From positions 1-53,933 of IMG/VR virus record IMGVR_UViG_3300008516_000179: 53,933 nt of DNA. One strand, given 5' to 3'. Shown here one piece after another: positions 12,794 to 46,102 of this stretch. How positions within the stretch are numbered: the stretch's first letter is position 1; every line of letters begins with the position of its first letter. The notes under the pieces are model-generated. The model did not search any database. It was not told the origin of the DNA and was given only the letters and a program-made list of their open reading frames with translations. This DNA is from a virus. A program made the translations under genes and the position numbers.

Positions 12794-13258
12794 CTATAAA
12801 ACTTGAATTAAATATCTGAATTCTACAAAGCCACGCTGGACGATATAAGGATCGTCCTGAGACGCTCCTTGCTCGATATATCTAAGCTCGCTTAGATCCT
12901 GGAGGATATTATTAAATCCGTAGGAACTAAGATCCAGCTTTCCGAGTGTCGCGTCCGTCATGGCCTGCAGAACTAAATTCACGATATGCTTCACTTCATG
13001 TTGTCCTGTCTTTATGCTGTTATCAGTGAAGACGTTAGTCTCAGAAAAATATTCAAAGCCAGCAATGTCTCGAGCTCCGAACTCCCCAGCGAATCCTCCT
13101 CCGACTCGAATATAAGGACGTGCTTGATTCTCCGGAACTTCATCGAAGATCACATCTTTATAAGGAGCGAGGAGAGAATGCGCGACAAGACGATCAAAAG
13201 TTTCCTTCTGGATCGCCCAGCTCGGATCCTTATGCTCTGGCTTCATTCCTCTTCCCAT
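12794..13258 (-). CDS. Tail terminator/completion protein, DUF3168-like
   Basis: A 154-residue protein. The pattern LAPYKDVIFDEVPENQARPY followed by IRVGG, a His-containing strand (GQHEVKHIVNLVLQAM) and a C-terminal beta hairpin (VQRGFVEFRYLIQV) matches the DUF3168/gp17 family that caps the tail tube. It sits immediately before the tail tube gene. Its ATG overlaps the stop of the methyltransferase, so the inserted cassette upstream is co-translated with tail genes. Confidence 0.75.
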   Translation of the reverse strand: MGRGMKPEHKDPSWAIQKETFDRLVAHSLLAPYKDVIFDEVPENQARPYIRVGGGFAGEFGARDIAGFEYFSETNVFTDNSIKTGQHEVKHIVNLVLQAMTDATLGKLDLSSYGFNNILQDLSELRYIEQGASQDDPYIVQRGFVEFRYLIQVL

Positions 13259-13992
13259 TACTTAACACCTTTTATGACGACATTTTTTATATCAATGAGA
13301 CAGTCCTTCTCTCCGACCATTCTTACATTTTGAGCTCGCTTGAATTCTTCAGATCCTTCCGCATGATAAAAAAGGATTTCATCCTGGATCTCCTGTGAGA
13401 GTCCGCTTTTCTGGAGCCAGCTCTTCACGCTGAGATCTCGGGTCCAGAAGTCCTCGAATTTTTCAATCCTGAACCCAGCGCAGACGAGAAGCTTGCAGAG
13501 AGACAAAGGAGTAAAGATGACTCTGCGATCTTTGAGCGCGAGAATTTTTTTGTATTCCTCCTTTACTTCTTCTGTTGGAGCGACGCGGTCTCCGACCAGG
13601 ATCTCTCCTCCTTCTTTCAAGACTCGATAGCATTCCGCGAGCGCCATCTCAACGTCAAGATAAATATGATGGAGCACGTTCCTTGCGATCACTTTATCAA
13701 AGCTCTCATTCATAAAAGAGAGATTCCGGAGATCCTCGTGCGCGAGGATCGTGTTTCCGTTCTTGCTGCAATGCTGGAGCATAGAGAGTGAAGAGTCGAC
13801 TCCTACAATAGCTCTCACGCGCCCAGAGAGCTTATCTGAGATCAGTCCAGTTCCGATTCCAGCATCGAGGACGAGATCTTCCTTCCGGAACTCCAGGAAG
13901 TTAAGAAAGAGATCGATATACTTCGGATCATTCGCCCACTGGAAAGAGCTATATTTCCCTGCTCTTTTTTTCCAGTATTCCTGCTTGCTCAA
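13258..13992 (-). CDS. Class I SAM-dependent methyltransferase
   Basis: A 244-residue protein. Motif I VLDAGIGTGL lies at 41-50, an acidic strand end (GVDSSLSML) follows, then FDKVIARNVLHHI and CYRVLKEGGEILV, all typical of small-molecule or lipid/sugar methyltransferases of the UbiE/Methyltransf_11 type. It is the last gene of a four-gene cassette with sulfotransferase, glycosyltransferase and LicD-like genes, overlapping its neighbours by 1 and 4 bases. Substrate is unknown. A sugar or lipid is more likely than DNA given the context, because no DNA target-recognition domain is visible. Confidence 0.8.
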   Translation of the reverse strand: MSKQEYWKKRAGKYSSFQWANDPKYIDLFLNFLEFRKEDLVLDAGIGTGLISDKLSGRVRAIVGVDSSLSMLQHCSKNGNTILAHEDLRNLSFMNESFDKVIARNVLHHIYLDVEMALAECYRVLKEGGEILVGDRVAPTEEVKEEYKKILALKDRRVIFTPLSLCKLLVCAGFRIEKFEDFWTRDLSVKSWLQKSGLSQEIQDEILFYHAEGSEEFKRAQNVRMVGEKDCLIDIKNVVIKGVK

Positions 13993-14570
13993 AGTAGGAT
14001 CTCCTCAAAAGTTTCGAAGTCGATCGCTTTGCTATCTCTCCAGGAGAGCCAGTCACGATCCGGAATATCCCATCTCTTCCCATACCAGCGCTCGAGATAT
14101 TCTTCCGGAGGATCCGGAACGAAACATTTTATTCCTCTAAAGTTTATCTCCTTGAGATTTAAAAATAATTTCTTTTTAAAAACGCATGGATAAAAAACTT
14201 TGTATTCTCCCCAGCGTCCTTTTTTGTCGGGTCCGAACAGCCCATGCCAGCAGTACTCTCCATTCACGTAATAAGGAAAGAGATCCAGCTTCGAGAGGAT
14301 CTCCTCTCCTTCTCGTGATCTCATCGCAAGCGCGACTTTTAGATCTTTTTCCTTCCATTCCATGAAGAGCTCAAAGCCCAGAGATTTCAATTCTTCGATG
14401 AGACAATCCCAAATCTTCGGATCGCTCGGAAAGTATCCTATGTCAATATCGATATTGAGAAAGCGATTGTCTCGTACTGCTCCTAGACAAGCTCCTGCCA
14501 TGAGCCAGCATTGCCAGCCATGGCTCTTGAAGATCTCAAGCGCTGCGCGAAGAGCTTCGAAAGTATTCAT
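13989..14570 (-). CDS. LicD/fukutin-like phosphotransferase
   Basis: A 193-residue nucleotidyltransferase-fold protein. The start WLMAGACLGAVRDNRFLNID leads into DIDIGYF near residue 41, corresponding to the LicD G-x-LLG-x-xR...DDDID metal motif. The segment EYLERWYGKRWDIPDRD near 157 is the typical LicD C-terminal box. LicD proteins transfer phosphocholine or other phospho-groups to surface sugars. The acidic pair is present, so it is probably active. It overlaps both cassette neighbours by 4 bases. Confidence 0.8.
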   Translation of the reverse strand: MNTFEALRAALEIFKSHGWQCWLMAGACLGAVRDNRFLNIDIDIGYFPSDPKIWDCLIEELKSLGFELFMEWKEKDLKVALAMRSREGEEILSKLDLFPYYVNGEYCWHGLFGPDKKGRWGEYKVFYPCVFKKKLFLNLKEINFRGIKCFVPDPPEEYLERWYGKRWDIPDRDWLSWRDSKAIDFETFEEILL

Positions 14571-15610
14571 GCGTCCATCCTCCGAGCTTGCTTCCTTTCC
14601 ATCCGCTTCTTCCAGAATTCATTCTTTTGTTCCTGGAGTTTTTCTTCCTCCTTGCTGATCTGCTTCCGCGTTTCCTTCTCCACGATGGTTAATTTATTGT
14701 CGAGCTGTCTATTAATCTCTTCAGTGAGCTTTTTATAAATCCTCTGGACTGGAGTTTCCTGATTAGTTCCGTAGACTTTATTTAAGAATAAATGATGATT
14801 GCTTACGAGCTCTCCTGTAAGTAGATCTATGACTTTGATTCCTCCTTCAGCTTTCGTCATATAGATTCCGAAGCGGATTCCAGTCTTCTTGAAATAGTGG
14901 AGCCAGCTTAAGCGCTTCCGTCCTTTCGAAGAACGGAGAATCTCGTACTCGTCTTTATGTGGTTTTTTATCATGATTCGCGTGGACTGTCGGAGTATAGA
15001 TGACTTTCCACTTTCCCTGATCCTTGAGATCCAGGAAGAATTGAAGATGCTCATGGACAATTTTGTATTCCGAGTCCCAGGGATTATCCTCCCAGCATTC
15101 TCTCCTCATCATAAACCAGTTCATCGCGAGATCGCAGTAATGGTATTTGATTCCTTTGTGATTCTTCCATTTGATCTCATCGTATTCCTTCATGACATAG
15201 AATTTTTCGAACTTCCGGAGCTCGTGCTCGTAGTGCCAGTCCTGTCCATTCGTGTTAAGCATTCCTGCAGCGAGCCCAGCTTCCGGATGAGCGAGGAGGA
15301 GCGTCTTCCAGTTTTCGAGTCGACTCCTCTCAGTGAAGACGAAATCATCGTCGCAGATCACCATGTATTTTTCTTTGGATGCTATCATTCCGATATTCCG
15401 AGACAGAGCGAGTCCGGAATCATAAGGAAGTCGGATCAGATTGCATTCGCTTTGTCGTAGGAATCTTTCTTTCGCATAGCTTGTCTTCCCCTGATCTACG
15501 ACATAAATATTGATATCAGGATAAAATTGCCGAATACTTTGCACGCACTTAAAGAGCACGTCATCGCGGATAAAAGTAACTACTATAATTCCGACGTCAT
15601 TAAGCTTCAT
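14567..15610 (-). CDS. GT2-type glycosyltransferase (GT-A fold)
   Basis: I place the start at ATG 15610, preceded by AAAGGAGAAAAGAATA, giving 347 residues. The frame stays open up to 15724 but that part overlaps the sulfotransferase. The GT-A domain shows VVTFIRDD, then GLALSRNIGM and DDDFVFTERSRLE near residues 87-99, strikingly like the DXD region of beta-1,4-N-acetylgalactosaminyltransferases and related GT2 enzymes. The last 50 residues are a charged helix, perhaps a partner-binding tail. It likely transfers a hexosamine-type sugar, but donor and acceptor are inferred. Confidence 0.85.
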   Translation of the reverse strand: MKLNDVGIIVVTFIRDDVLFKCVQSIRQFYPDINIYVVDQGKTSYAKERFLRQSECNLIRLPYDSGLALSRNIGMIASKEKYMVICDDDFVFTERSRLENWKTLLLAHPEAGLAAGMLNTNGQDWHYEHELRKFEKFYVMKEYDEIKWKNHKGIKYHYCDLAMNWFMMRRECWEDNPWDSEYKIVHEHLQFFLDLKDQGKWKVIYTPTVHANHDKKPHKDEYEILRSSKGRKRLSWLHYFKKTGIRFGIYMTKAEGGIKVIDLLTGELVSNHHLFLNKVYGTNQETPVQRIYKKLTEEINRQLDNKLTIVEKETRKQISKEEEKLQEQKNEFWKKRMERKQARRMDA

Positions 15611-16406
15611 TATTCTTTTCTCCTTTCTTTTGCTGCAGCTCGCGGATCTGCTGTTCCTTGCTCTCGAAGAAATGATCTTGAGCGGATTTTGTAGGATCCT
15701 GTCCTCGAGCTCCCCAGTCTTCAATGATCCTCTTGAATGTTATCGCAGGATCTTCCTGGATTGCGTTCATGGTTTTTCGCGGATGGAAAAAATTATCTGG
15801 GAACTTTTGCGGAAGTTCGTGCTCGATCTCGAAGTGTGCGAACATTTTTCGATACTCCTCCGGATCCGAGATCTTCCGAAAGTCAAAGTCGTATGTCTTG
15901 TCAAATTTATCTTTCCACAGAAGGAAACGCTCGCGGATTTCGAAGCACTGCCAGAGAGAGATCTCGTGGAAGCCGAGTCCTTTTCTTCCTCGCATGAGAT
16001 TCTTTTGCCACTGAGGTTGTAAGTGCCAGCTCATGTCATGACTCGGGAAAGTTTTTTTGAAATAGCTCATCGTGACTTCGATCGGATTCCGATGGAGATA
16101 AATTACATAGAGCGGACGGAATTCTTTTTTATAGACGACGAGATGGAGATAGCTTTTTATAAACATCTGATTCGATTCGAAATAATTTCCTTCTTTTGCA
16201 TCTCCTGAGATCTGGAGGAGTTTTGTGCGCAGCTCCTCTCTCGAGCTTTTATTCATTCCGCATTCGTTATTCACTTCTCGGAGAGTCTGTCCTGCGCAGT
16301 ATGGGACTGGCTCATGGAAGCTTGGATATTTTGTGAAGTACTTCCAGACAGCAGTTAGGAATTTTGTTCCGCAGCGTCCAGTTGAAGCGACAAAAATAAA
16401 CGCCAT
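15600..16406 (-). CDS. PAPS-dependent sulfotransferase family protein
   Basis: A 268-residue protein. The phosphosulfate loop STGRCGTKFL lies at residues 8-17, and the 3'-phosphate-binding motif HRNPIEVTMSYF lies at 105-116 with Arg106 and Ser114 in the expected places. It ends in a charged helix (ESKEQQIRELQQKKGEK). Such enzymes sulfate sugars, proteins or lipids. It opens the four-gene cassette between the tail gp10-like gene and the tail terminator. Sulfotransferases are uncommon in phages. Confidence 0.8.
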   Translation of the reverse strand: MAFIFVASTGRCGTKFLTAVWKYFTKYPSFHEPVPYCAGQTLREVNNECGMNKSSREELRTKLLQISGDAKEGNYFESNQMFIKSYLHLVVYKKEFRPLYVIYLHRNPIEVTMSYFKKTFPSHDMSWHLQPQWQKNLMRGRKGLGFHEISLWQCFEIRERFLLWKDKFDKTYDFDFRKISDPEEYRKMFAHFEIEHELPQKFPDNFFHPRKTMNAIQEDPAITFKRIIEDWGARGQDPTKSAQDHFFESKEQQIRELQQKKGEKNNEA

Positions 16407-19195: not shown

Positions 19196-20272
19196 TTATC
19201 CGTGAGTAAGTTTCTCGATCAGCACGATCGCATTCACGTTCTCAACAGTGAAGTCACAGCGGATGGAATAGAAGAAGTAGTTCGCTTCATCCGAAGCTTG
19301 TCTCTCAGTCTCGATCTTGATCTCTCTCTGGATTCCCCAGATCAGATTCATCCAGTGCGTGAGCATGGCGTCGCAGTAGTTTCCTGCGTCGAGCTTTCCT
19401 GCAGCGTCAAGCGTGATCGGCATCTGCGGAACGGACACGAGTTTGACTTTTCCGTAAGCATACTCTTCTCCAGCTTTTCCGGTGATAACAGTGTCTCCGA
19501 GAGCAGTCGCTCGCTTTGCCAAAGCATCGAGATAATCCTGTTCGACGTTGTCATTCTGGAAGAATCTTAACTGAGAGAGTCCTCCTTTCTTTTTGTACTT
19601 GGAGGGCATTGTCCGGATCGCTTTGCTATATTTATATTCCTGATCGTATGGAGCAGCAGCTTCTCTCTCAACTATCTTCCCAGCTCTCGCGAAGTCCGCA
19701 GTCGCGTCCAGGACATAGGATCCTCCGGAGACTTCATTGTAATAAGCTTGTCCGACTGCAGAATGAGTGATGACATAGCGCCATCCATCCCACATTGAGC
19801 GAATATCATCTGGAGCAAATCCTCCGAGCGCGTGCGTATCTGAAATATAAGCAGCTTCCTCGACTTCATTCGCGACCTGAGACGCGACCATTTTCATAAC
19901 ATGATCCGTAAATTGATCGTCTGTTTCGACTGTGATATCTTCCAGATCATCGTCATAGATCACGACACAACCTCGAGCTTTTTTGGTCGCCAGCGTGATC
20001 GTGTTGGATCCGAATTCCTTCTTATAGTCGGAAGTTCCGAATGTGTTCGCTGGTTTAAGGAAGCGTCCGGATCCGAATCCGAGTCCTTGAATATTCTTCT
20101 CGCTGTTCTTCATCTTCACGATCCTGCAGTTATTCTTCAGCACGCTCTCATCGACCACGTAATCGATAAAGCGATCAGCTTCCTCCGGTTGCAGCGTGAG
20201 CGATGGGAGAATAGTCAAAGCTTTCTTCATCCGCTCCTTATTTTTCTTCAACAGATTTTTGTTCGTTCTCAT
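19196..20272 (-). CDS. Major capsid protein, HK97-fold
   Basis: A 358-residue protein immediately after the scaffold. The N-terminal helix and arm (LTLQPEEADRFIDYVVDES, then RIVKMKNSEKNIQGLGFG) and an E-loop-like segment followed by a long spine helix region (FTDHVMKMVASQVANEVEEA) match an HK97-like capsid of the type seen with XkdF-type proteases. The C-terminal domain is rich in beta strands. The SD AGGAGGAAACG lies before the ATG. Size and synteny support the call strongly. Confidence 0.85.
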   Translation of the reverse strand: MRTNKNLLKKNKERMKKALTILPSLTLQPEEADRFIDYVVDESVLKNNCRIVKMKNSEKNIQGLGFGSGRFLKPANTFGTSDYKKEFGSNTITLATKKARGCVVIYDDDLEDITVETDDQFTDHVMKMVASQVANEVEEAAYISDTHALGGFAPDDIRSMWDGWRYVITHSAVGQAYYNEVSGGSYVLDATADFARAGKIVEREAAAPYDQEYKYSKAIRTMPSKYKKKGGLSQLRFFQNDNVEQDYLDALAKRATALGDTVITGKAGEEYAYGKVKLVSVPQMPITLDAAGKLDAGNYCDAMLTHWMNLIWGIQREIKIETERQASDEANYFFYSIRCDFTVENVNAIVLIEKLTHG

Positions 20273-21287: not shown

Positions 21288-21328
21288 GTTCCGCTCCTGA
21301 AATTTTTTTCTGATCCCCCCAACTTTGC

Positions 21329-21384
21329 AAAAAAAAAGCGAAGCCGAGAAGGATCTTTACGTCGGATCCTTTTCAACTTCGCTT
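21329..21384 (-). terminator. Strong intrinsic terminator before the scaffold gene
   Basis: The minus strand shows AAGCGAAG (377-384 side) pairing with CTTCGCTT (336-343 side), an inner AAGGATC/GATCCTT pairing, and a run of nine T residues. It stands about 40 bases upstream of the scaffold start and downstream of a TTGACA promoter. Confidence 0.75.
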
Positions 21385-21465
21385 ATCGACGAAAGCTTCT
21401 GTCCTGGATGGACAGACTTATTTCTCGATCAAGTGAATTGAAAGCTATCCATCACCGTCATATCG
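21340..21465 (-). ncRNA. Candidate small RNA or attenuated leader before scaffold
   Basis: The 333-base gap 21288-21620 contains no supported gene. A TTGACA-18-TATCTT promoter predicts a start near 21465 and the terminator ends near 21329, so a transcript of about 130 bases would be made. Alternatively this is a leader with attenuation in front of scaffold and capsid. No known RNA family is recognised. Confidence 0.4.
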
Positions 21466-21471
21466 TTGTAG

Positions 21472-21501
21472 AAGATAAATATAAGTTCAAGAGCTTGTCA
21501 A
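21472..21501 (-). promoter_or_regulatory. Sigma70-like promoter, TTGACA-18-TATCTT
   Basis: A perfect -35 TTGACA (21496-21501) with a -10-like TATCTT (21472-21477), 18-base spacing, in the only large gap of the head region. Tandem ACTCCGGAGT palindromes lie about 11 bases upstream, where an activator or repressor could bind. Confidence 0.5.
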
Positions 21502-21511
21502 GGATTATTTT

Positions 21512-21532
21512 ACTCCGGAGTTACTCCGGAGT
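21512..21532. repeat. Tandem ACTCCGGAGT palindromes (2 units)
   Basis: Two copies of the 10-bp palindrome ACTCCGGAGT, 11 bp apart, so on the same face of the helix. The same motif appears at 29115-29135 and 45697-45728. Here it sits just upstream of the TTGACA box. Confidence 0.6.
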
Positions 21533-21620
21533 AGATCCGGAGCTCCTCGAGAAGACAGTGAATGCAATGATATACGTCGGAAAGAGGTTGTCGCTTAGAC
21601 GCGATCTCAGAGCGTTTTTT

Positions 21621-24509
21621 TTATTCGACTTTCTCCTTTTTCCTCCGATGAGCGACTCCAGCCATGGAGAAGCCAGTGAGCTCTCCGTCCTTCACTTTCT
21701 TCCACAGCGCAGCGTCGCGGATTCGGATAATCAGGATCCAGGATCCTTTTTTGATTTTTTCTTTTGCGATCTCAAGATCCTGTGGAGCGATATAGTTTTC
21801 TAAGATATTTATTTTCGAAGAGATTGCGATTCCTTCATGCTGCAGCTTGAATCTCCTAGCGTGCTCCATGTAATAATAGCAAGCTTGTCGGATCTCCTCT
21901 TCAGTGGAGAAGTCTCCTTGCGAGTCCTCCTCCTTTGGCTCGTATACGATTCCTCCGACGATCTGCTCGTCCTCCTTCACTTTGAAGATCGGAACTGTAT
22001 CCGGAAGTCTCTTCTGAATCGTCTCGTCATAGTCAGTCTCCTTGAGTCTCGACAGCATCCAGACGCGCTTTCCTCCTTCTACTGGAACGAAAGCAAAGAG
22101 ATAATTTCCTGTCAGATATCTATTCTTGAAGCGGATCTTCTTCGCGTGCTCATCCGCAAGATAGATCTCCCAGTGAAGCTTGTCCATCTGGATCATAGAA
22201 GCATACTGATTCGCGCTGGCTCCGGATTCTCCTGGTTTAAAAATATGGACAGATCGCTCTCCGATCAGCATCCATCCGAGAGATCCTCGCACGACTTTAG
22301 TCTTCGTCTCTCCAGCTCGCGATTGCTTCCATGCAAAGCGAAGCTTTCCTTGAGTGTGAAGCTTCTTGAGCTTCTGGAGTCCGGAGATATTTCCGATCAT
22401 GATCTCGCCACCTTCCCAGAAGTTCTCTCCTTCTCTATGCAATCTCATGTCAATGTGAGCTCCATGCTCTCCGATCGCTGCATGGAGAGTGTTCTGCAGC
22501 TTCGAAGGATCCTGTCTCGCGATCATGATCTTTTTCTCAACGCTCTTTAGATCTTCCGCTTCTTCATCGCTCAATCCCATAATATGAATCTGGATCACTG
22601 CAGATCCTTTGTCTCCAACTTTAAAATCGATATTTCCGAATTCGGATCCTTTTCCTTCGTCGTCCTTATGGAGCTGTCCGTATCCTGGACGCTCTCTCCT
22701 TCTCATCTGTCCCCCACACTTAGGACACTCGAGATCTATGCAGTGCTCTTCAGTCTCAATCGTATGTCCGCATTCAAGACACTCGCAGAGAAACTTCTCT
22801 TCAGCTTTTGTCCTCTTCAGCTTTGCGAGAGTCTTCGCTTGCTCCTTTGTTGTCAACGCTGTTCCTCGAGGTTTTAAGGAACGCACGATCGGATTATCCC
22901 ATGTAAAGGAATTTTTCTTCTCGTCGTACTTCACTTCAGCGACAGCGATCTCCAGAACGTCTCCGACTTTCGCTTTGATCTTCGTCGCGTATGTCCGTCC
23001 GATCGGAGCTCCATCCTGGATCTCGCATGTATAGATCCATCCTCCTCCTTCCTTCGATTCGACTTTCACGACTCGAGCTCGGATCTCCTTCATGTTCTTG
23101 AACTTCGCCCAGTCCGGAGTTGATCCTTTCAACGGATACTTTGAATTGACAGCTTTACACATAGCTCCTTCGGAATGCTTTTCCTCCGAATGCTTTTTTA
23201 CTGCAGCGCGGAATCGAGCTTCAGTCTTCGCAATCGTGGGGACAACTTTCTCCACATTGAGCTCGTCGACTTTAGAGAAAATCTGCGATAGAGAATCCTG
23301 ACGACTTCGCCATTCATTGTTATCAAGCGGAGTGTTATGGTAGTAGAGACAGTCGAAACAGAAGATCTTTGCTTTGAAAGCTGGAGGATCTTTCGACATT
23401 ATATAAGTCGGCATGTCCTTCCTGTCGATCTTCCCACCTTCTGAGCTGTAGACTAGCAGCTCTCCATCCAGGACAAAATTATCCTTGAAGGACTGAATCT
23501 CCTTCTTAAGATCCGGAAGACGTTCTGAGAGATCTCGCTTCGCGTCTTCTGAAAAGATCTTCACGTCCTTATCATGCTTATGGATCTGGACACGGAATCC
23601 GTCGAACTTCGTCTCCACTGCGACTCCAGGATCCGGAAGATATCCGGACGCCCAGATCTTGACAAGCTCATCGATGGATCCGAACTCATGCTTTCCGTAT
23701 CCTCCTGCAGACTTGAGTGGAGTGAAAGGACGTCCGAGCGTGATTGACGCTTTCTCAAACTTTCTGCAGATTCCATCTAGCGTCTCCTCATCTCCGCAGA
23801 TCAAACAGCGAGGATGACCATTCTTGTGAGTCCACTTCGCAGGCATAAAAGGATGAGGAAACTTCGCTTGTTCTGCGTTCCTCCGGATCCTCTCGCTCTC
23901 TTCCTCGTATTCTTTGTGCTCCTTCATCTTCCGGTCAAGCTTCTTCGCTTTTGAGATATCCATTTCCTTGACTCGCTTGATCTCCATAAGATCTTTAGGA
24001 CGGAGCACTAGATCAAAGAGAGAGATATAGGAGGAGTGGGGCCCCGCAGCGTGATAGATAAATTCAATATCTTTTTTCACATGCTTTTGAAGAGCTCGTC
24101 CCAGCTTCAGCTCCAGTGTTTCATCTCTCGCTTCTTCGTTGAATCTAAGAACGACGTCTATATCTTGCGCTTCTTCCGGATTCCGGACAAAGGATCCTGC
24201 GATTGAGCAAAAGTCCGGAATGATAACGAGATCTCCGAATTCGGAAACAGAAAATTTGTAATTAGACTTATTGAAAATATAGCTCTCAATCGTATTCAGC
24301 TTTTTGTAGTAGATTCCTCTCTTTGACATTTCCTTTGTCAGGATTTTATATTTCTGCAGAAGATAATTTCGCCCTAGCACTCCGGAAGTTTTGAGCTCGT
24401 TTCCATGGAAGTTTGATTTCCAGAGCTGATCGATTATCGTCCTCAAAGGAGGAAGCTCTTCACTTCTTTCTCTATCGAGTGACTTTGTCGTGATCTCTTC
24501 TATTCGCAT
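21621..24509 (-). CDS. Fusion: NTase-like, ATP DNA ligase, LigD-PE-like, XkdF prohead protease
   Basis: Start at ATG 24509 (TAATGCAATG after the methyltransferase, SD AGAGGT), 962 residues. Regions in order: about 85-145 a nucleotidyltransferase-like segment (SIAGSFVRNPEEAQDIDVVL); 235-248 a short Cys pair; 295-475 an ATP-dependent ligase core with ETKFDGFR (Lys301), FVLDGELLVY, EGAMCK and WAKFK; 476-550 an OB fold; 575-600 a zinc ribbon; 635-825 a LigD 3'-phosphoesterase-like domain (HGAHIDMRLHREG); 848-955 an XkdF-like domain (EDSQGDFSTEEEI, LENYIAPQDLEI, GELTGFSMAGVA). It lies just upstream of scaffold and capsid, as the protease should. Joining DNA repair and capsid maturation in one chain is very unusual. 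Whether it is processed is unknown. Confidence 0.85.
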   Translation of the reverse strand: MRIEEITTKSLDRERSEELPPLRTIIDQLWKSNFHGNELKTSGVLGRNYLLQKYKILTKEMSKRGIYYKKLNTIESYIFNKSNYKFSVSEFGDLVIIPDFCSIAGSFVRNPEEAQDIDVVLRFNEEARDETLELKLGRALQKHVKKDIEFIYHAAGPHSSYISLFDLVLRPKDLMEIKRVKEMDISKAKKLDRKMKEHKEYEEESERIRRNAEQAKFPHPFMPAKWTHKNGHPRCLICGDEETLDGICRKFEKASITLGRPFTPLKSAGGYGKHEFGSIDELVKIWASGYLPDPGVAVETKFDGFRVQIHKHDKDVKIFSEDAKRDLSERLPDLKKEIQSFKDNFVLDGELLVYSSEGGKIDRKDMPTYIMSKDPPAFKAKIFCFDCLYYHNTPLDNNEWRSRQDSLSQIFSKVDELNVEKVVPTIAKTEARFRAAVKKHSEEKHSEGAMCKAVNSKYPLKGSTPDWAKFKNMKEIRARVVKVESKEGGGWIYTCEIQDGAPIGRTYATKIKAKVGDVLEIAVAEVKYDEKKNSFTWDNPIVRSLKPRGTALTTKEQAKTLAKLKRTKAEEKFLCECLECGHTIETEEHCIDLECPKCGGQMRRRERPGYGQLHKDDEGKGSEFGNIDFKVGDKGSAVIQIHIMGLSDEEAEDLKSVEKKIMIARQDPSKLQNTLHAAIGEHGAHIDMRLHREGENFWEGGEIMIGNISGLQKLKKLHTQGKLRFAWKQSRAGETKTKVVRGSLGWMLIGERSVHIFKPGESGASANQYASMIQMDKLHWEIYLADEHAKKIRFKNRYLTGNYLFAFVPVEGGKRVWMLSRLKETDYDETIQKRLPDTVPIFKVKEDEQIVGGIVYEPKEEDSQGDFSTEEEIRQACYYYMEHARRFKLQHEGIAISSKINILENYIAPQDLEIAKEKIKKGSWILIIRIRDAALWKKVKDGELTGFSMAGVAHRRKKEKVE

Positions 24510-24513
24510 TGCA

Positions 24514-25392
24514 TTACCTCTTTTTAAGGAATAGAGCTCCGAAAGTGTATGGAGCATAATTGTATCGCGGATGACCCAGATATGTCTTTCCGTTGTCATA
24601 GAGCTCCTGATTATATTGGATCTCAAAGAGTCCTTCATCCAGCAGGAAGCACTTCCGGAGATCTTCCGGAGTAGACATGAGCTGATCCTTCCATTCAAAA
24701 GGATCCTGGGGATCCGGACGGAAAATCGCAGGACGAGGATTCTTATAGTCGAACGTGATCGTCAGCGTTCCTCCAGGGACTAGCGTCCGATGATATTCTC
24801 TGATCGCACGCTGGCGCTGGTGAATCGTGAGATGCTCCATGACGCAGATCGAGAAGATCGCGTCAAAGGATCCAGGAGGAAAGATCTCGAGCTTTGTAAT
24901 ATCCTGGACGATCGAGGAGCTCCAATGAGGAGTCTGAGGATCATTACTCAGCCATGTCTTGATCTGCGCGATCCGCTGCGCTTGCTCCACGAGCTTCTCA
25001 TCCAGCTCGCAGGAGAAGACTTTATATTTCCGGAGCTCGGAGAGATACGCCCAGAATAAGGAGCACGCTCCTCCTGCGTCCAGGATCCACCATCCATCCT
25101 TGAGCAGAGTATGCTTCAGAGCCCAGAAGATCTCCCAGTATAGGAACCAAGGAAAGTGCGGATCGTCTGCAGCTCCAGGAATAGGAATGTATCCTCCTGG
25201 AGTTCCGCAGTTCCGCGAGTCTTTTTCCGGATTTGCTGGGACGTCAGTTAAAGTTCCATGCCATCCGGAAAGATGGAGATTGAGATTTTGGAAACTCCGG
25301 ATCAGGAGATTGAGCTCTTTTATAAGCTTCGCAGCGTCCTCATGTAAAAAAAGATCATCTCGATCCATGGTTTTATTTATATGTTCAATCAT
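24514..25392 (-). CDS. Class I SAM-dependent methyltransferase
   Basis: A 292-residue protein. Motif I WWILDAGGACSLF is at about 101-113, FDAIFSICVMEHL follows, and RTLVPGGTLTITFDY is the usual post-motif strand. It resembles Methyltransf_11/23 enzymes and has an extra 90-residue N-terminus. It overlaps a 44-residue gene by ATGA and precedes the ligase-protease fusion by 4 bases, within head genes. The substrate is unknown. A capsid, glycan or small-molecule target is possible. Confidence 0.75.
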   Translation of the reverse strand: MIEHINKTMDRDDLFLHEDAAKLIKELNLLIRSFQNLNLHLSGWHGTLTDVPANPEKDSRNCGTPGGYIPIPGAADDPHFPWFLYWEIFWALKHTLLKDGWWILDAGGACSLFWAYLSELRKYKVFSCELDEKLVEQAQRIAQIKTWLSNDPQTPHWSSSIVQDITKLEIFPPGSFDAIFSICVMEHLTIHQRQRAIREYHRTLVPGGTLTITFDYKNPRPAIFRPDPQDPFEWKDQLMSTPEDLRKCFLLDEGLFEIQYNQELYDNGKTYLGHPRYNYAPYTFGALFLKKR

Positions 25393-25524: not shown

Positions 25525-27132
25525 CTATCCTCCTGTTGAAACTTTTGTTCTCTTGTAATTATATTTGAATGTCTCGGCTATATACGTGACAGTTTCATGT
25601 GAATGCTCTTCGTTTAATTCATCTGTTATTTGTTCGATGAGTTTATTTTTCTGCGCTGGAGGAAGCGAATCTCCTTTCGCTGCTCTGAATTTTTCAAAAA
25701 ATTTTGTATCATATTTCGAGAAGAGAGATCTCCATTTATTCCTCTGTATCGATGGAGCGAGACTATTCCATTTATCTCCAGTGGCGGGAGCGATCGTGAA
25801 TCGGTATTTCGTAGAAGTGACAATCATCTCTCCTATGTTAAGCTCTGTCGCGAACTTGATATCAGCAGGAGAGAAGGACGCAGAGACAGGATGATTATGG
25901 ACAAAAGCAGCAGCGTTTCTTATTTCCGCGCACTCTTCCGCAGTATATTTGACTGAGCGACGTCCTCCACTCTTCCGGAAGATTATGTTTCCAGCATTGT
26001 CAAGAGCTGCGCTGTGCTCTCTCGGACTTCTGGCAAATTTAGCCATGATCTCAGCGATCGCGTTTTCGATTCCTCCTTTCAGTCCTCCTGGAGGTTTGTA
26101 CGTCAGCGGATTCTTGAGTCCTCCTTTCGGATGACGCAGGATCCAATCGCAGCGTCCGTTCGGATGGACTGGGATCACTCCGTATGCTTCCTCGATCTTA
26201 TAAGTCGTTCCATCCATATCCGCACAGATCGGACAAGCTCCATGCGCAGCGAAGAATCGGACTTCCTGAACTCCAACTGATTTATATCCGACAAGAGATC
26301 CTTGAGCTTGAGCGATCGCAGTCTCAGTCCTCGCGATCATTATCCTTCTGGCTCTCAGAAGTTTATTACGATATCTCTGCGCGATCGCGTTCGATTTATC
26401 CGCTGCCATTCCTGCAGCTTGTCGCTTCACGTTCGCGTTCACTACTGCAGCAGCCCAGCGATCCGAAAGCGTCTGGATCATGGTAAGGTCTCGAGCGATG
26501 TGTGGCATGGATAAGCCGTTCTCGATCCCAGTCTTTACGGTCGACCGGACAGCTTTCCGGATCTCATCTGTGACGCTCGTGATGAGATCCCCTCCTATCT
26601 TGTTGATTGCAGCGACAGCTTCAGGTTTCAGAACGTCGAACTGAGCTTGAATCCCAGCAAGTCGATAAGCAGCGTTTCCTCCATCGACAAAAGCAGCAGT
26701 ATACCCAGCTTTGAGAATTGCAGCTCCTTCCGTCTTAATCTTCTCGAGATTCATCGTCCCAAAGATCCGAGCTGTGACTTTGTTCGCGACTGTGGAAGGA
26801 TCCGCTTTAATCCTGAATGTCTTCGCGCTGGTGATCTTCTTTCCTGAGACATAGAAGTCCATCTTCTTAGACTGGGAGAGTCTCAGTTCTTTCCGGATCG
26901 CACGCTGGAATTCCGGAATTAAAACTTCTCTTTCGAACTGGATATAAAGTTTCTTAAATTTCGGAATGTTTTTATTCTGGATCCTGTCATAGATTCTCTT
27001 CACAAAACTCCGGATCGGAGCGGACTTATAGATCTTTTCAATCAGCATCGATGCTTGCTCAGTATCCACGAGATGAGCTTCCTTTATGATCGACTCAATC
27101 TTCTGGATCCGCTGCTGCAGCTCAGTCGCCAT
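25525..27132 (-). CDS. Mu-F/SPP1 gp7-like head morphogenesis protein with JAB-like C-terminal domain
   Basis: A 535-residue protein. A long helical N-terminus leads to the head-morphogenesis core: RIMIARTETAIAQAQGS (263-279), the Cys pair at 300/303 (ACPICADMDGTTY) and PVHPNGRCDW (321-330), the usual zinc-type motif. The C-terminal part (375-500) is an added domain with VHNHPVSASFSPADI at 411-425, an HxHP...S..D pattern like JAB/MPN metallopeptidases and related Mu-F-fused effectors. Mu-F proteins enter the capsid with the DNA and are common carriers of toxins or enzymes. Here the added domain could act in the new host or in head processing. Confidence 0.85.
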   Translation of the reverse strand: MATELQQRIQKIESIIKEAHLVDTEQASMLIEKIYKSAPIRSFVKRIYDRIQNKNIPKFKKLYIQFEREVLIPEFQRAIRKELRLSQSKKMDFYVSGKKITSAKTFRIKADPSTVANKVTARIFGTMNLEKIKTEGAAILKAGYTAAFVDGGNAAYRLAGIQAQFDVLKPEAVAAINKIGGDLITSVTDEIRKAVRSTVKTGIENGLSMPHIARDLTMIQTLSDRWAAAVVNANVKRQAAGMAADKSNAIAQRYRNKLLRARRIMIARTETAIAQAQGSLVGYKSVGVQEVRFFAAHGACPICADMDGTTYKIEEAYGVIPVHPNGRCDWILRHPKGGLKNPLTYKPPGGLKGGIENAIAEIMAKFARSPREHSAALDNAGNIIFRKSGGRRSVKYTAEECAEIRNAAAFVHNHPVSASFSPADIKFATELNIGEMIVTSTKYRFTIAPATGDKWNSLAPSIQRNKWRSLFSKYDTKFFEKFRAAKGDSLPPAQKNKLIEQITDELNEEHSHETVTYIAETFKYNYKRTKVSTGG

Positions 27133-30787: not shown

Positions 30788-31020
30788 TACTTTGTCCTTT
30801 CGAACGCTGTCCGTTTTACAATCAGATAGACTGGAGGGTGCGTGTTCTCTTTCGTCCGGATATTCAGCCATGCTCTCCCCAGCAGCAGCGCAGAGGCTCT
30901 CTCCTTGAAGCTCATCCTCCAGCAGCTCAAGACCTGGGATCCGTCAGTGAAGACAGGAAGATCCGCGCAGTCCGGAGCGACGAGCTTTGTGTTCGCTTCC
31001 TCAAAATTGACTGGTTTCAT
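30787..31020 (-). CDS. Conserved phage protein of unknown function
   Basis: A 77-residue protein. The pattern KPVNFEEANTKLVAP, LPVFTDGSQVLSCWRMSFKE and LLGRAWLNI is one I recognise as a common small hypothetical protein in phages and prophages, often near portal or other head genes. It has no known function. It overlaps the portal stop by 4 bases. Confidence 0.75.
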   Translation of the reverse strand: MKPVNFEEANTKLVAPDCADLPVFTDGSQVLSCWRMSFKERASALLLGRAWLNIRTKENTHPPVYLIVKRTAFERTK

Positions 31021-32615
31021 TTCGTATCCTCCTCTTCTAGCGTCTGGACTCTAGACTCGAGATTCTGCGTGATCCGAAGCAGCTCTTCCTCCTCCTTTTC
31101 CAGATCCTCCTCTCCGACTTTGACAAGTCCTTTCTCAATGTATCGATCGTTTCCTCCTTCTTTCTCGTCGATCGCTTCTCGTCCGTCGACAGCTCGCAGC
31201 TCGTTCACTCTCAAAGCAGCGTTCCGGAAGAGCTTGATCGCTCTCGCGATCTCCGAATCTTTATTCCTGATATCCGGAGGAATCAACTTGAACAGCATCG
31301 GAACTTCCTTATCCTCCCCATCTCCTTCGACCAGAGTCGGAAGGATCTGGAAGTTGAAGATGTTCTCGACTTTCTGCTGCAGCGTCTCTACGCTCGAGGA
31401 AACATAGATATCAGTCAGCTCTTCTGCGAGATTTCCTCCGAGAGCTCCTTCTTCTGCAATCGCCACTCGGTAAGGAGGCATTGAATAAGCGACCAGGATC
31501 TCATTCCTCATCTGCTTGTAATAGTCCTTCATGAAGTCTCCTTCCTTGACTTCGTTCATGAGAGGAATCCATTCGAGTCCTTTTCTCTCCTCCTTCGTGA
31601 GTCCAATCTCGTCCTGCTGTGGAGCTTGGAGCACTAGAGTCTTATACGCGTTCTCGGATCCTCTGATCTCGGATTCAATAAACTCCTTTATCTCTGTGTC
31701 GGATCCTTCTTTCCAGTCTCCATACAGGATCACGAGAGCTGCCGGGACTCCGTAATTTTCGAAGAACGAAAGATTGAAGTCTCGGATTCCGATCATGGAG
31801 ATGACAGCTCCAAGAGCTCCCAGAATATTCGGAACTCCATAGTAGTCAGATCTCACATAGTAGTTCACGTCCATAATCATTTCACTTGCAAGATCCTCTT
31901 CTTTTGCTTCTTTCTTTGATTCCGCGCCAGTCTCCGCGACAAGATCTTCCTTCTCTCCGAATCTCTTAAACCAGACACGCTTCCGCTGTCCTTTGACATA
32001 GCGAGTCTGACAGTATTTCTTCTCCGATTCGTGAACGCGGATCGTATAAGCTGGGACGTGAAACATCGATCCGATATCTCCGTCTCCAGTTCTCGAAAGT
32101 TCCATGTTCATCCATCCGGAGGATCCCCAGTCAACGATGAGGCGCTTTATCATTTCGATAAGATCGTAGTCGCCGTCCGCTGGACGATCGAGGAGCTTCT
32201 TCGCTTTCTCCTTGAATGACTTCGCTTTCTCATCTTTCTCAGGATCGACTCCTTCCTTTGGCTCGAACTTGTATCCTTGTCCAGCAACGTCTTGCGCAAG
32301 CTGATTCACTGTCCGCATGTAATAGATGTTAGACTCGTAATAAGTGAGGAATCCTTCAGGATCATAAGGAGGGGCCATGAGTCCTTTATCTTTCCAGTAG
32401 GACTTATCCTCCTTGAGCTGCTTCGAAGTCCTCTTTCCTTCTGTGCGCTTTGAGATCTGGACAAGCTTTCCTTTTGTCGTGTAAGCGAAGACTCGCCCTT
32501 GTCGGAGTTTCGACTGCTCGGAGATCTTGTCGTGAATCTGCTCCGGAGTGAGCGGACGTCCTTTTTGGACGATCGTCATCTTCTTCTTAAGAGCGCTTTT
32601 CTTTTTCTCGGCCAT
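31017..32615 (-). CDS. Portal protein
   Basis: I choose ATG 32615 with SD AGAGGAGGTGACA, giving 532 residues, rather than GTG 32621. It shows a PBSX/HK97-type portal pattern: YYMRTVNQLAQDVAGQGYKF near the N-terminus, SSGWMNMELSRTGDG, YYVRSDYYGVPNILGALGAV, FFENYGVPAALVIL and MRNEILVAYSMPPYRVAIAE. The last 40 residues are an acidic coiled coil. It forms the DNA-entry dodecamer at one capsid vertex. It follows terminase with a 308-residue gene between. Confidence 0.9.
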   Translation of the reverse strand: MAEKKKSALKKKMTIVQKGRPLTPEQIHDKISEQSKLRQGRVFAYTTKGKLVQISKRTEGKRTSKQLKEDKSYWKDKGLMAPPYDPEGFLTYYESNIYYMRTVNQLAQDVAGQGYKFEPKEGVDPEKDEKAKSFKEKAKKLLDRPADGDYDLIEMIKRLIVDWGSSGWMNMELSRTGDGDIGSMFHVPAYTIRVHESEKKYCQTRYVKGQRKRVWFKRFGEKEDLVAETGAESKKEAKEEDLASEMIMDVNYYVRSDYYGVPNILGALGAVISMIGIRDFNLSFFENYGVPAALVILYGDWKEGSDTEIKEFIESEIRGSENAYKTLVLQAPQQDEIGLTKEERKGLEWIPLMNEVKEGDFMKDYYKQMRNEILVAYSMPPYRVAIAEEGALGGNLAEELTDIYVSSSVETLQQKVENIFNFQILPTLVEGDGEDKEVPMLFKLIPPDIRNKDSEIARAIKLFRNAALRVNELRAVDGREAIDEKEGGNDRYIEKGLVKVGEEDLEKEEEELLRITQNLESRVQTLEEEDTK

Positions 32616-32626
32616 TGTCACCTCCT

Positions 32627-33553
32627 CTATTCTGAGCGATAGACTATCACTTCAGATTTTCTTTGAAGATCAAAATCAGATACAGCAAAGAGAATCTCCT
32701 CTCCAGCGAAGACGTAGATCTTATCTGATCTCTGGAGCTTTATATTCTTTGAGATCTCGAAGCATTTTCCAGTCGATACGAGATAGAGTCGAGATGGAGC
32801 ACTCATCTGCGCAAAGTCTTTCGACCATTTTGCATCCAGTACAAGAGCAGCTCCAGCGAACTTCTGCGGAACGCAGACAAATAAGCGGACTTGTCCTTCT
32901 TTTATCCGCTCCATGAGCTTGTTTAATCCTTTAACTACTTCCAGAGATGAATCTTTCCACTTCAGCAGGATCTCGTAGTGGATCCCAGTCTCCATCTCAT
33001 CGCGATCCGGATCATCCGGAAATTCAGGATCCTCCTCCTCGTTTCTCCTCTCCAGCGATTTGATCGTATCCTTCATAATGACATTCTCTCTCACCATTCC
33101 TGCAGGATCGCAGACAGTCTCGAGACTATGGATATAACTCCGGACAGCTTCAGGCAGCTCATTGACATTCCTTGAAGTTGGGAGCCAGGATCCAGGAATG
33201 CAAAAGAAGTCACTAGGAAACTTAAAGCCCTCCACTTCAGCGGAGAATGTGATAGGAGCTAAAGTCCGGAGGATCTCGCGGATCTTCTCTCTGAATTTTT
33301 TCCTATCAGGAAGATAAGGACTATTGATAGCGCTCCTCATCATATTGTAGATCCTGTCGATCGCTTTATCCTCGGACTCGTCTAGTTTTTTTGCTTCCTT
33401 GATATCCATTTGGATCACCTCCTCTTGCAGTGCAGAACGACTGCTTTTTTTTACAGTGTCGAAAAATGCGAGCATGTTTTCTCTGGAGTATCCATAGAGA
33501 TCGACGTTTGAATCTGTCCGCATTCTCCTTAATAAATCTCTGAATTTATTCAT
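32627..33553 (-). CDS. Unknown protein between terminase and portal
   Basis: A 308-residue protein, ATG overlapping the terminase stop as ATGA. Helical N-terminal 80 residues, then a mixed region, and a C-terminal 120 residues with beta strands (RLFVCVPQKFAGAALVLDA, IYVFAGEEILFAVSDFD). I do not recognise a fold. The location between large terminase and portal is normally empty or holds a small gene, so this may be a packaging accessory. Confidence 0.65.
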   Translation of the reverse strand: MNKFRDLLRRMRTDSNVDLYGYSRENMLAFFDTVKKSSRSALQEEVIQMDIKEAKKLDESEDKAIDRIYNMMRSAINSPYLPDRKKFREKIREILRTLAPITFSAEVEGFKFPSDFFCIPGSWLPTSRNVNELPEAVRSYIHSLETVCDPAGMVRENVIMKDTIKSLERRNEEEDPEFPDDPDRDEMETGIHYEILLKWKDSSLEVVKGLNKLMERIKEGQVRLFVCVPQKFAGAALVLDAKWSKDFAQMSAPSRLYLVSTGKCFEISKNIKLQRSDKIYVFAGEEILFAVSDFDLQRKSEVIVYRSE

Positions 33554-34854
33554 CTTACGACTCGTCCTTGTCGCTTCTCTTTGACTCTGGAGTGAGCGAT
33601 CACGATCGCGTCCAGTCTGTCCGGACTCATCTTGATTCTCTTCTTAAACTCCTCTTTTGATTCGATCCGGATCTGTCTGTCTACAGTTGGGACTCGATAT
33701 CGGATCCTCATCTGCTTTGCCAGCTTGTCATCCAGTGGAAGATCTAGAGCGTGGAGATCGTTCCGGAGCAGGAAGAAGTCTTCTGCTCTTTTGTTTTTAT
33801 ACATAGGATCCAGCGCAGCGTCAGAGGATCTATACGCGAGGAGCTTTCCTCTGAATCCGCGCTGCAGGAGCCATGGAAGCTTCCGCTTAATTCTATCGTA
33901 GACTCCAGCTCCGAATCCGATTATATCGATCTTCACTTCCGCTTCTCTGTGATTAATCATCTCGTCTATCACTTTATCTGCGAGGAGCATGAGATCAGCT
34001 AGTCGATAGATCCGAAACGTGTACTTGTTCGCACGCTTGAACGCGAGGACTGATTCGTCTGGACCCTCGCGAGCGACGTCGACTCCGATCGCGCTCACGT
34101 TCGCGAGCGCTCGAGACTGGCGTCTCATCGCTTCCTCTACAAGAGAGATAGGAAAGACGTGAGACTCTTCAGAGAGTACGTCCCAGTCTCCTCTCATCCA
34201 GGATTTAAAAAGCTCAGCAGGAAGAATCTTTTTCATTCCCAGGAGATATCCTTCAGGATTATATGGATTGTCTTCCGGAAGAGCAGGAATAAAATCGTGA
34301 TCCTCGAGCTCCTGATCGATCCAGCGGATCTTAACCCAATTAGAAGCAGGATTCGCAGTGCAGAGTCCTTTGTGAATGATTCCTGGAAGATTCAAAGAAA
34401 GCCGAGTTGACAGCATAAGGAAATGATCTTCAGTCGTCTCTTCAATCTGATCTACTCCGAACCAGCCGAGCTCCATTGACTTTAGCTTATCGAGTCCGCG
34501 CTGATCGTCTCCGAGTCCTCCGTAATACATTTCGGATCCGTTCTTGAATTTGAAGAGCTTCTCGGATTTATTATGAAAAAGATAAAGAGCAGGATCCAGC
34601 CACTTCTCCACTTCTTTCAATGTGGAGCGCTTGAATTCCTCTAGCTCATGTCTGCAAAGATATCCTCTGTTTCCTGGATACAGCGTCGAGAGCTGGATTC
34701 CGGAATTCACGAGCCAGCATGTTTTTCCTCCTCGCATAGCTCCTCCATACATCGGATACTTCACAGGAGAGAGATGAGCTTTGAGCTGGCGGGGCTCTGG
34801 AACGTACGACTCCACTCTTACCACTTTGAATCCGGATTCCTGGATTCCGATCAT
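33550..34854 (-). CDS. Terminase large subunit
   Basis: A 434-residue packaging motor. Walker A GGAMRGGKT is at 37-45, Walker B with catalytic Glu WFGVDQIEE at 131-139, and a motif III-like region follows. The nuclease domain has Asp259 (IGVDVAREGPDES), Asp310/320 (IDIIGFGAGVYD) and Asp412/415 (PDRLDAIVIA). All expected acidic residues are visible, so it is likely functional. It pumps DNA into the prohead and cuts concatemers. The upstream partners are a 58-residue coiled-coil gene and the small terminase. Confidence 0.93.
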   Translation of the reverse strand: MIGIQESGFKVVRVESYVPEPRQLKAHLSPVKYPMYGGAMRGGKTCWLVNSGIQLSTLYPGNRGYLCRHELEEFKRSTLKEVEKWLDPALYLFHNKSEKLFKFKNGSEMYYGGLGDDQRGLDKLKSMELGWFGVDQIEETTEDHFLMLSTRLSLNLPGIIHKGLCTANPASNWVKIRWIDQELEDHDFIPALPEDNPYNPEGYLLGMKKILPAELFKSWMRGDWDVLSEESHVFPISLVEEAMRRQSRALANVSAIGVDVAREGPDESVLAFKRANKYTFRIYRLADLMLLADKVIDEMINHREAEVKIDIIGFGAGVYDRIKRKLPWLLQRGFRGKLLAYRSSDAALDPMYKNKRAEDFFLLRNDLHALDLPLDDKLAKQMRIRYRVPTVDRQIRIESKEEFKKRIKMSPDRLDAIVIAHSRVKEKRQGRVVR

Positions 34855-44741: not shown

Positions 44742-45257
44742 CTAGTTTTCCTTATTTTTATCGATAAGTCCAGGATCTTTTTTTCCGATATCAAGCTCTG
44801 GATATGCGCTTTTTTTTAGAACTTTGCTCACGAGAATCTTATAGCATTTGACAAAGTGAGCTCGATCTCGCGCTTCATGGAATGTATCCAGTCCTCCGAA
44901 CTGACGCCAGCTTCCGAATGCCAGCTCTATAGTATCCTCGAGGAGCTTGTCGCTGGATGGATAAGTGCTCGTACTTGAAAGATAAGAAGCTTTGCTCCAT
45001 GCTGTCAGCGCAGCTCCATCCAGCTCTTCATTAATGCTGAGCTCGACTTTCTCTCGGATCTCTCCAGGAAGCGGAAAAGTGGTTATCCTTTTTCTCCTCG
45101 CAACTTCAAGGATCGCTCGCTCCACGTCCTCAATCGGAAGATCCTTAAGCAGTCTGAAGTAAAGCTCGACTTGTTCTTCATTGAGATCTGCCATTCCAGG
45201 AAGCAAAGAAATCAGAGCAAGAGCTTTCACAAAGCGCTCAGAATCCTTGTCAATCAC
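44742..45257 (-). CDS. Replication helicase-loader-like protein
   Basis: A 171-residue helical protein. The start (FVKALALISLLPGMADLNEE) with VELYFRLLKDLPIEDVERAI and RRKRITTFPLPGEIREKVEL is the pattern of phage replication loader/DUF-type proteins placed after DnaD-like genes. It overlaps the DnaD-like stop by 4 bases. The C-terminus is basic. Function is inferred from synteny. Confidence 0.6.
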   Translation of the reverse strand: MIDKDSERFVKALALISLLPGMADLNEEQVELYFRLLKDLPIEDVERAILEVARRKRITTFPLPGEIREKVELSINEELDGAALTAWSKASYLSSTSTYPSSDKLLEDTIELAFGSWRQFGGLDTFHEARDRAHFVKCYKILVSKVLKKSAYPELDIGKKDPGLIDKNKEN

Positions 45258-46102
45258 TTTCTCTCCCTTTTCTTTTTAAGTAGCCATGCTTTATAGCCAG
45301 CGAACTTCTGATCTATGTAATTTCCTTCAATGATTTTCTGATAGTTTGAAGGATTGACGATCCAGTCGAAGAAGACTCGGAATCCTGCTTTTGTTTTTCC
45401 GAGAAGAAACGGACACTTCTCAATGATCTCAAGCATTGCTTCGATAATGAACGGATTTTTTTTCATGCGGATCCTTGCGACAAGATGCTTTCTCCGCGTT
45501 CCTTCAATCTCCATGATCTCTGCGAGACTGTGCTTCTTCGCGAATGTGTTCCACTTAAGAAGAGTATTCTGTATGTCAGCAGACAAGAGATACTCTTCCG
45601 GAGAAGCTTCCGGAAGTTTCTTTTTCGGAGGATCCGGACTGGGATCTCCATCCGGAGATTTTTTCTTCTGGATCTTCTTCTTAACTTTTTTTGCTGGCTC
45701 CGGAGTAACTCCGGAGTTACTCCGGAGTTTTGTTTTCTTCTTGTGACTCTTCGGAGGAGCTGGGATAAGAGAACGCGCTTCTCTATTTTTTCGGAGTCCG
45801 ACTTGATGCTCATGAAAATCTATGAATTCCATATACATTTTTCCTTTAGCTCCATAGCGGTTGACTAATCCTATATCGTCGAGATCCTGCAAGTATTCTT
45901 CTATTCTCGACGGAGAATATTTTTTCCTCATCTTGTGTCCCAGGAAGTCGTCATAAATATCCTGCGGATTCGCAGTGCAGCGTCCTTCGACGTCGACATT
46001 CGTATAGCAAATTACATAAAGAAAGCGAGCATGCATAGAATTAAGATCTGCGACTTTCTCAGATTTCCCCAGTCTCTTCGAGATGAATCTTCCGCGAGAC
46101 AT
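45254..46102 (-). CDS. DnaD-like replication initiation protein
   Basis: A 282-residue protein. The N-terminal 110 residues contain a winged-helix region (NSMHARFLYVICYTNVDVEG, then RIEEYLQDLDDIGLVNRYG) as in phage replisome organisers. A basic Pro/Lys linker (KKKTKLRSNSGVTPEPAKK) follows. The C-terminal part ends FRVFFDWIVNPSNYQKIIEG, the usual DnaD/loader tail. It likely binds the phage origin and recruits helicase. The linker is encoded by the CTCCGGAGT repeats. Confidence 0.7.
   Translation of the reverse strand: MSRGRFISKRLGKSEKVADLNSMHARFLYVICYTNVDVEGRCTANPQDIYDDFLGHKMRKKYSPSRIEEYLQDLDDIGLVNRYGAKGKMYMEFIDFHEHQVGLRKNREARSLIPAPPKSHKKKTKLRSNSGVTPEPAKKVKKKIQKKKSPDGDPSPDPPKKKLPEASPEEYLLSADIQNTLLKWNTFAKKHSLAEIMEIEGTRRKHLVARIRMKKNPFIIEAMLEIIEKCPFLLGKTKAGFRVFFDWIVNPSNYQKIIEGNYIDQKFAGYKAWLLKKKRERK
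45697..45728. repeat. Three CTCCGGAGT units within replication gene
   Basis: GCTCCGGAGT, ACTCCGGAGT, ACTCCGGAGT, each 11 bp apart, coding for part of the replication protein linker. The same palindrome occurs in two intergenic segments. Confidence 0.6.

Follow-up and report, generated by a model that had tools for sequence, protein, structure and literature searches.

Predicted DNA-repair enzymes fused to an XkdF-type prohead protease in a modular protein family of uncultivated viruses

Why should a DNA ligase and a phosphoesterase end in the protease that matures a virus head? This question is raised by a single gene of a tailed virus, which is known from metagenomes only and whose record of 53,933 nucleotides constitutes the window analyzed here. 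The encoded protein P0002 comprises, from the N- to the C-terminus, an MNT-type nucleotidyltransferase (NTase), an ATP-dependent DNA ligase with its OB fold, a zinc ribbon, a LigD-type 3'-phosphoesterase (PE), and an XkdF protease (Table 1). A first-pass annotation, which was made from the sequence alone, had interpreted the chain as a ligase and a LigD-type PE fused to XkdF in the slot of the prohead protease and, moreover, as possibly a nearly complete end-joining machine. The first part of this interpretation stood, the second was not supported. The answer that we propose, and to which we assign an even chance, is that P0002 is a phage "polyvalent" polyprotein: an XkdF head-maturation protease with a cargo for repair and nucleotide transfer, which would be taken into the prohead and released with the DNA.

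Table 1. Coordinates of the fusion gene, its domains, and the neighboring head genes in the window
Feature	Position	Strand	Evidence
Multi-enzyme/XkdF fusion protein P0002, 962 aa	21621..24509	minus	Single open frame, ATG start; identical frame in L106 and L003
MNT-type (Pol-beta superfamily) nucleotidyltransferase core, residues ~92-170	24000..24236	minus	GS...DxD motif, AF2, Foldseek
ATP-dependent DNA ligase adenylation domain, residues 295-472	23094..23627	minus	PF01068 E=5e-26 (295-471); KFDGFR, LDGEL, SEGAMCK, WAKFK
Ligase OB-fold domain, residues ~473-546	22872..23093	minus	All-beta block in AF2 model
Zinc-ribbon-like segment, residues 575-600	22710..22787	minus	C577, C580, C595, C598 by sequence; sub-threshold zinc-ribbon profile matches
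LigD-type 3'-phosphoesterase (PE), residues ~632-822	22044..22616	minus	Conserved residues, family profile vs PDB, AF2 pLDDT mostly 75-94
XkdF (Peptidase_S78_2) prohead protease domain, residues 841-955	21645..21989	minus	PF14550 E=3e-31, 108 bits vs curated cut-off 24
Separate scaffold-like protein P0006	20319..21287	minus	phrog_3017 positions 258-391, E=8e-10, i.e. C-terminal half of XkdF-family proteases
Major capsid protein candidate	19196..20272	minus	phrog_1623 E=8e-57; alignment to annotated phage major capsid proteins spans ~90% of its length
Stand-alone class-I methyltransferase P0007, 4 nt upstream of fusion gene	24514..25392	minus	Methyltransf_11 E=3e-12
MuF-type minor head protein	25525..27132	minus	PF04233 E=1e-7; phrog_115 E=8e-16
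Portal protein	31017..32621	minus	PF04860 E=7e-12
Terminase large subunit	33550..34854	minus	PF04466 E=5e-5; tblastn to annotated terminases

The open reading frame starts with an ATG at position 24509, which is preceded by the Shine-Dalgarno-like sequence AGAGGT, and stops at position 21621. A plus-strand reading of the interval 21621-24509 was discarded, as it contains no gene. The motifs listed in the first-pass annotation for the ligase, the PE, and the XkdF parts were all located as quoted: ETKFDGFR at residue 299, FVLDGELLVY at 345, EGAMCK at 447, WAKFK at 467, HGAHIDMRLHREG at 682, and GELTGFSMAGVA at 942. The contigs L106 (18.9 kb), L002, and L003 are 99.96-100% identical to the window, with zero indels; among these, L106 and L002 represent one public contig and L003 another, which amounts to two further records in all. 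A frameshift separating the ligase from the protease, which had been named as the finding that would undo the fusion, is absent. One might still suspect that assembly or sequencing had joined two adjacent genes, the more so as an XkdF-family protease and its scaffold part usually form one protein and are split here. The indel-free agreement of the overlapping contigs and the occurrence of the same fusion in independent, divergent viruses reduce the probability of such an artefact to a negligible value; the fusion is real and far beyond chance. The AF2 model of the complete chain has a pTM of 0.37 and consequently does not give the mutual placement of the domains.

The C-terminal domain is the one most easily named. 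In addition to the Pfam match, PHROGs assigned this part to the head maturation proteases of phrog_3017 (E=1e-40), and the putative catalytic residues H891 and S948 are nearly invariant (alignment A6). The XkdF-like end is thus corroborated both by a Pfam score above the cut-off and by a conserved histidine and serine. The genes follow each other in the order terminase, portal, MuF, fusion, scaffold, and major capsid protein. As had been proposed, the fusion occupies the prohead-protease slot between the portal/MuF and the scaffold/capsid genes.

P0002 is a predicted ATP-dependent DNA ligase with canonical motifs intact: the KxDG motif, motifs III-V, and the OB fold are all present. The ligase and OB parts gave good AF2 models. 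When searched with Foldseek, the ligase domain matched DNA ligases (E 6e-18), and the model of ligase plus OB fold aligned with the LigD ligase 6nhz over 310 columns with a TMt of 0.62. The zinc-ribbon-like segment falls in a low-confidence region of the AF2 model.

If P0002 is considered alone, Pfam is silent for the PE segment, which by the refuting condition of the first-pass annotation put the assignment in doubt. At the level of the family the domain is real, and a profile built from 24 sequences led to LigD-type structures: the top five PDB matches were 3p43 (E=7.7e-5), 3p4h, 5dmp, 3n9b, and 2lj6, some of which are titled only generically and all of which we take to belong to the PE family. 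In many relatives, LigD_N (PF13298) was found at the expected place with E-values of 0.005-0.2, all below the cut-off. The residues H642, H685, D687, and R689, which constitute the metal- and phosphate-binding signature H...HxDxR, are invariant or nearly so. The region in which a second His/Tyr pair would be expected (H84/Y88 in the P. aeruginosa PE) is aligned without confidence by the PE profile. The same profile matches many short archaeal ORFs, the match spanning the end of the domain; these ORFs may be stand-alone archaeal phosphoesterases. A search of cultured phages with the PE segment alone gave no match.

The N-terminus bears on the end-joining proposal. The NTase core is preceded by a helical segment (residues 1-90), and its residues G105, S106, D116, and D118, which make up the GS...DxD motif, are invariant in the family alignments A5/A7. 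Modelled alone, the domain reached an AF2 pLDDT of 85. In a Foldseek search with this model, MntA (6m6w; prob 0.98, E 0.013) ranked best, followed by 5yep and HI0073; the E-values, 0.013 and up, are weak. Pfam gave weak DUF6932 and pol-beta palm matches for the N-terminus of P0002, and the NTase profile found no match among the PDB sequences. Like P0002, the bacterial end-joining ligase LigD (POL-PE-LIG) joins a PE domain to a ligase that has an OB fold. In contrast, the order in P0002 is NTase-LIG-OB-PE, the chain is fused to a capsid protease, and Pfam detected no AEP-type polymerase domain in it. Ku was not seen among about 30 window proteins scanned, which are a subset of the ORFs of a possibly partial record. 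The polymerase of LigD is of the archaeo-eukaryotic-primase (AEP) type and thus belongs to a superfamily other than that of the Pol-beta-type NTases. For these reasons, i.e. the different superfamily and the lack of a Ku among the proteins scanned, the notion of a nearly complete end-joining machine is unsupported: the N-terminus is a minimal Pol-beta-type NTase, whose nearest structural neighbors are MntA protein modifiers. Since MntA modifies its partner toxin, an NTase acting on a host protein or RNA would, by analogy, be as plausible as one acting on DNA ends.

The search for further proteins combining ligase and XkdF, which had been suggested as a check, was successful and found the arrangement conserved in divergent viruses. 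L009, which is only 28% identical to P0002, has the same domain order end to end and the gene order terminase - portal - fusion - scaffold - major capsid protein. Scans of viral contigs yielded first 11 and then 42 loci, these counts including several contigs more than once. Besides L009, at least 20 further contigs carry the same architecture, and the gene order is the same wherever flanks are present. The lengths of the proteins are between about 850 and 1846 residues, the cargo set of P0002 being among the smaller ones; this membership in a modular family had escaped the first-pass annotation. According to local profiles derived from the alignment, all long members contain the NTase, usually the ligase with OB fold, then the PE, and the XkdF domain last. 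In every case seen, the cargo is N-terminal to XkdF, and the chain ends in XkdF wherever that end is present.

Additional cargo was identified by means of Pfam: a uracil-DNA glycosylase (UDG) between OB and PE, a class-I methyltransferase (Methyltransf_11) between NTase and ligase, and, following the NTase, an adenine methylase of the D12 (Dam) type. L115 starts with a 2H phosphoesterase and has no ligase domain. A contig binned to Bacillota possesses, in the slot held elsewhere by UDG, a D12-type methylase recognizable by the motifs FFPPHKRYVEPYAGGAAVFW and DPPYP; a contig of a Thermotoga MAG divides its version between two frames that overlap, one with D12 methylase - NTase - ligase, the other with PE - XkdF. 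Both the Bacillota and the Thermotoga assignments could be binning errors. That a modular protein family is spread over many uncultivated viruses is a solid result; its variable domains amount to a list of activities from which a genome entering a cell would profit. Its longest member (L109:5358-10895; 1846 aa) has at least seven enzymatic domains, and its residues 1-288 are without a Pfam match; likewise, no Pfam match was obtained for an insertion of 474 residues between PE and XkdF in L101:10440-11863.

Sequence identity is distributed unevenly along these chains. L096 and L099 are 94% identical in the PE and 45% in the XkdF part; for L017 and L089 the values are 79-85% in the NTase and the methyltransferase and 43% in the ligase. 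This finding points to module exchange between relatives. In the PE tree, the clade of the window virus (with L103 and L105) stands apart from the rest. On this tree, the presence of UDG requires six changes, and well-supported branches force two of them or more; the row L015, listed there as lacking UDG, is a truncated contig.

Do these modules still matter to the viruses, or is XkdF alone functional and the N-terminal part a degenerating passenger? The ligase is where decay might be suspected. In many relatives, namely methyltransferase-bearing ones, KxNG takes the place of the usual motif I and the glutamate of motif III is lost, so that ligation may there be lost or changed, and L115 dispenses with the domain altogether. 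The ligase motifs of P0002 are, by contrast, canonical, and the PE is often the best-conserved module of the family. In the close pairs L104/L085 and L014/L016, dN/dS was 0.02-0.19 in every computable domain, one NTase comparison being saturated; both pairs are relatives, and the window virus is in neither. These codon comparisons show strong purifying selection on the relatives' domains and, with the points above, make a mere passenger very improbable.

The closest concept in the literature is that of the polyvalent proteins, known from phages and from conjugative elements. They combine several unrelated enzymes in one polypeptide and carry in terminase-portal phages a C-terminal assemblin-like (prohead) peptidase; their packaging and their delivery along with the DNA have been predicted (Iyer et al. 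2017, PMC5512222). P0002 resembles them in having at least three unrelated domains, a C-terminal peptidase, and a terminase-portal phage as its source. It differs in its set of activities, which serves DNA end-repair and ends in the virus's own maturation protease; neither a DNA ligase nor a LigD phosphoesterase nor a DNA glycosylase is mentioned in the main text of PMC5512222. The polyvalent hub domains zincin, ArdC, and SNF2-MTase were not found here. A fusion of ligase and XkdF, or of any repair enzyme and a maturation protease, was likewise not found in the PMC literature, whose coverage leaves out subscription journals; the papers searched do not describe the family.

The XkdF/Peptidase_S78_2 proteases, such as XkdF of the B. 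subtilis prophage PBSX and ORF12 of psiM2, share with P0002 the domain and the slot before the scaffold and capsid genes. Those inspected in cultured phages are 155-411 aa long, frequently include a scaffold part at the C-terminus, and are without N-terminal enzymes, whereas P0002 has about 840 enzyme residues ahead of the protease and leaves the scaffold part to a separate gene. Among 348 sampled Bacillota genomes, 15 of the 16 XkdF ORFs are 78-501 aa long; the remaining one is the family's own member of 1173 aa. Two groups of candidates had to be rejected. XkdF proteins of Lactococcus, Pseudomonas, and Rhizobium phages that are labelled "DNA methyltransferase" are no enzyme fusions, as they comprise only 155-350 aa with the match near the start and offer no room for a methyltransferase; the label, which these short stand-alone proteases bear in the phage records L121, L122, and L125, was probably carried over from the mixed family phrog_1530. 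In psiM2, an apparent PE stretch upstream of ORF12 crosses stop codons, which leaves XkdF only.

What, then, would the fusion be good for? The family suggests, without proof, the loading of DNA-repair enzymes into virus particles. Since a protease of this kind has to get into the prohead together with the scaffold, we infer that the enzymes fused to it enter as well. The XkdF end would accordingly take NTase, ligase, and PE into the prohead, would cleave scaffold and capsid protein there, and would probably cut itself off, such that the three enzymes stay in the particle. Ejected with the DNA, they could act before viral gene expression: the PE might heal 3'-phosphate or 3'-ribonucleotide ends and the ligase might seal nicks or genome ends. 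For the NTase, modification of a host protein or RNA is more likely than the filling of gaps in DNA. In relatives, UDG would remove uracil, Dam would methylate DNA against restriction, and the 2H phosphoesterase would act on host defence. In its boldest form, the reading would be that a group of tailed viruses uses the protease of the polyprotein to carry a repair kit into the prohead and to cut it there into enzymes, by which the injected genome is repaired and protected prior to any viral expression. We give this bolder form somewhat less than an even chance. Packaging, self-cleavage, and injection are all steps that we infer, the first two being the weakest of the mechanism. In addition, a cargo of 109 kDa would cost capsid space, which counts against delivery.

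Two further points concern the expression of the gene. The 333 bases between the fusion and the scaffold genes (21288-21620) contain a minus-strand promoter-like site (TTGACA-18-TATCTT); a strong 20-nt inverted repeat ahead of a coding-strand T-run was noticed at 21336-21384. The genes for scaffold and capsid may thus have a transcript of their own. These two elements count against onboard delivery, as they make it less certain that the fusion is expressed together with the capsid genes. A tandem/palindromic CTCCGGAG repeat is located at 21510-21548, and the interval as a whole gave no Rfam match.

Alternatively, the polyprotein could remain cytoplasmic. XkdF would then free itself early, the enzymes would seal nicks and repair bases on replicating or packaging-ready DNA, and the fusion would only couple expression. 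Two viruses lend weight to this view. The "ATP-dependent DNA ligase" of ANMV-1 (AJP62006.1) has the NTase-ligase-OB-PE order of P0002 and directly follows a portal-like gene, but an XkdF domain was not found in it, and an extra C-terminal segment is present; L018 encodes a ligase-OB-PE protein without XkdF directly before a separate S78 protease gene. Since in both the enzymes have a gene of their own, next to a portal or a protease gene, the fusion is not obligatory. The ANMV-1 protein found no relatives in the viral scan, and it was the only match when cultured phages were searched with the NTase segment alone. On the other hand, nearly every relative has its enzymes fused to the protease and not to neighboring genes, and their invariable position N-terminal to XkdF is expected if the protease part targets the chain. 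Moreover, repair enzymes, which are normally encoded by early genes, would belong among these and not among the head genes. We therefore regard purely cytoplasmic action as unlikely, if still worth considering.

A third possibility is that the enzymes act in the prohead during packaging, for instance by sealing nicks or trimming 3'-ends of the entering DNA, and are never injected. The location in the head operon and the protease fusion are compatible with this idea, and a pair of PE and ligase suits the healing and sealing of ends. However, a ligase needs ATP or prior adenylation, packaged DNA is dense, and the Dam, 2H, and NTase cargo of the relatives suits an incoming genome better. Interchangeable cargo combined with a constant XkdF end is a better fit to repair and counter-defence than to capsid chemistry. 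We rate action confined to the prohead as distinctly improbable.

If the enzymes are indeed packaged and delivered, as the favored explanation holds, the particles of tailed viruses of bacteria or archaea would contain a kit for DNA repair, which is otherwise known mainly from large viruses of eukaryotes. XkdF would then offer itself as a natural tag by which enzymes can be brought into phage heads, and the healing of 3'-ends by a LigD-type phosphoesterase would have a part in virus entry.

The surroundings of the fusion gene deserve a brief description. P0007 was considered as the unfused counterpart of the methyltransferases fused in relatives and was rejected, as BLASTP revealed no homology. 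A second stand-alone methyltransferase of the Methyltransf_11 type (13258-13992) and a family-2 glycosyltransferase (14567-15724) were noticed in the window, the former in the structural region. The genes at 45254-46102 and 46270-47700 encode a replication protein (DnaD-like/O-like) and a Gp3-like recombination directionality factor, a pair that hints at bacteria as hosts and at a lifestyle that may be temperate. Finally, the MuF protein possesses a C-terminal extension with an HNHP segment, which by eye is JAB/RadC-type-like; this extension may be another delivered enzyme.
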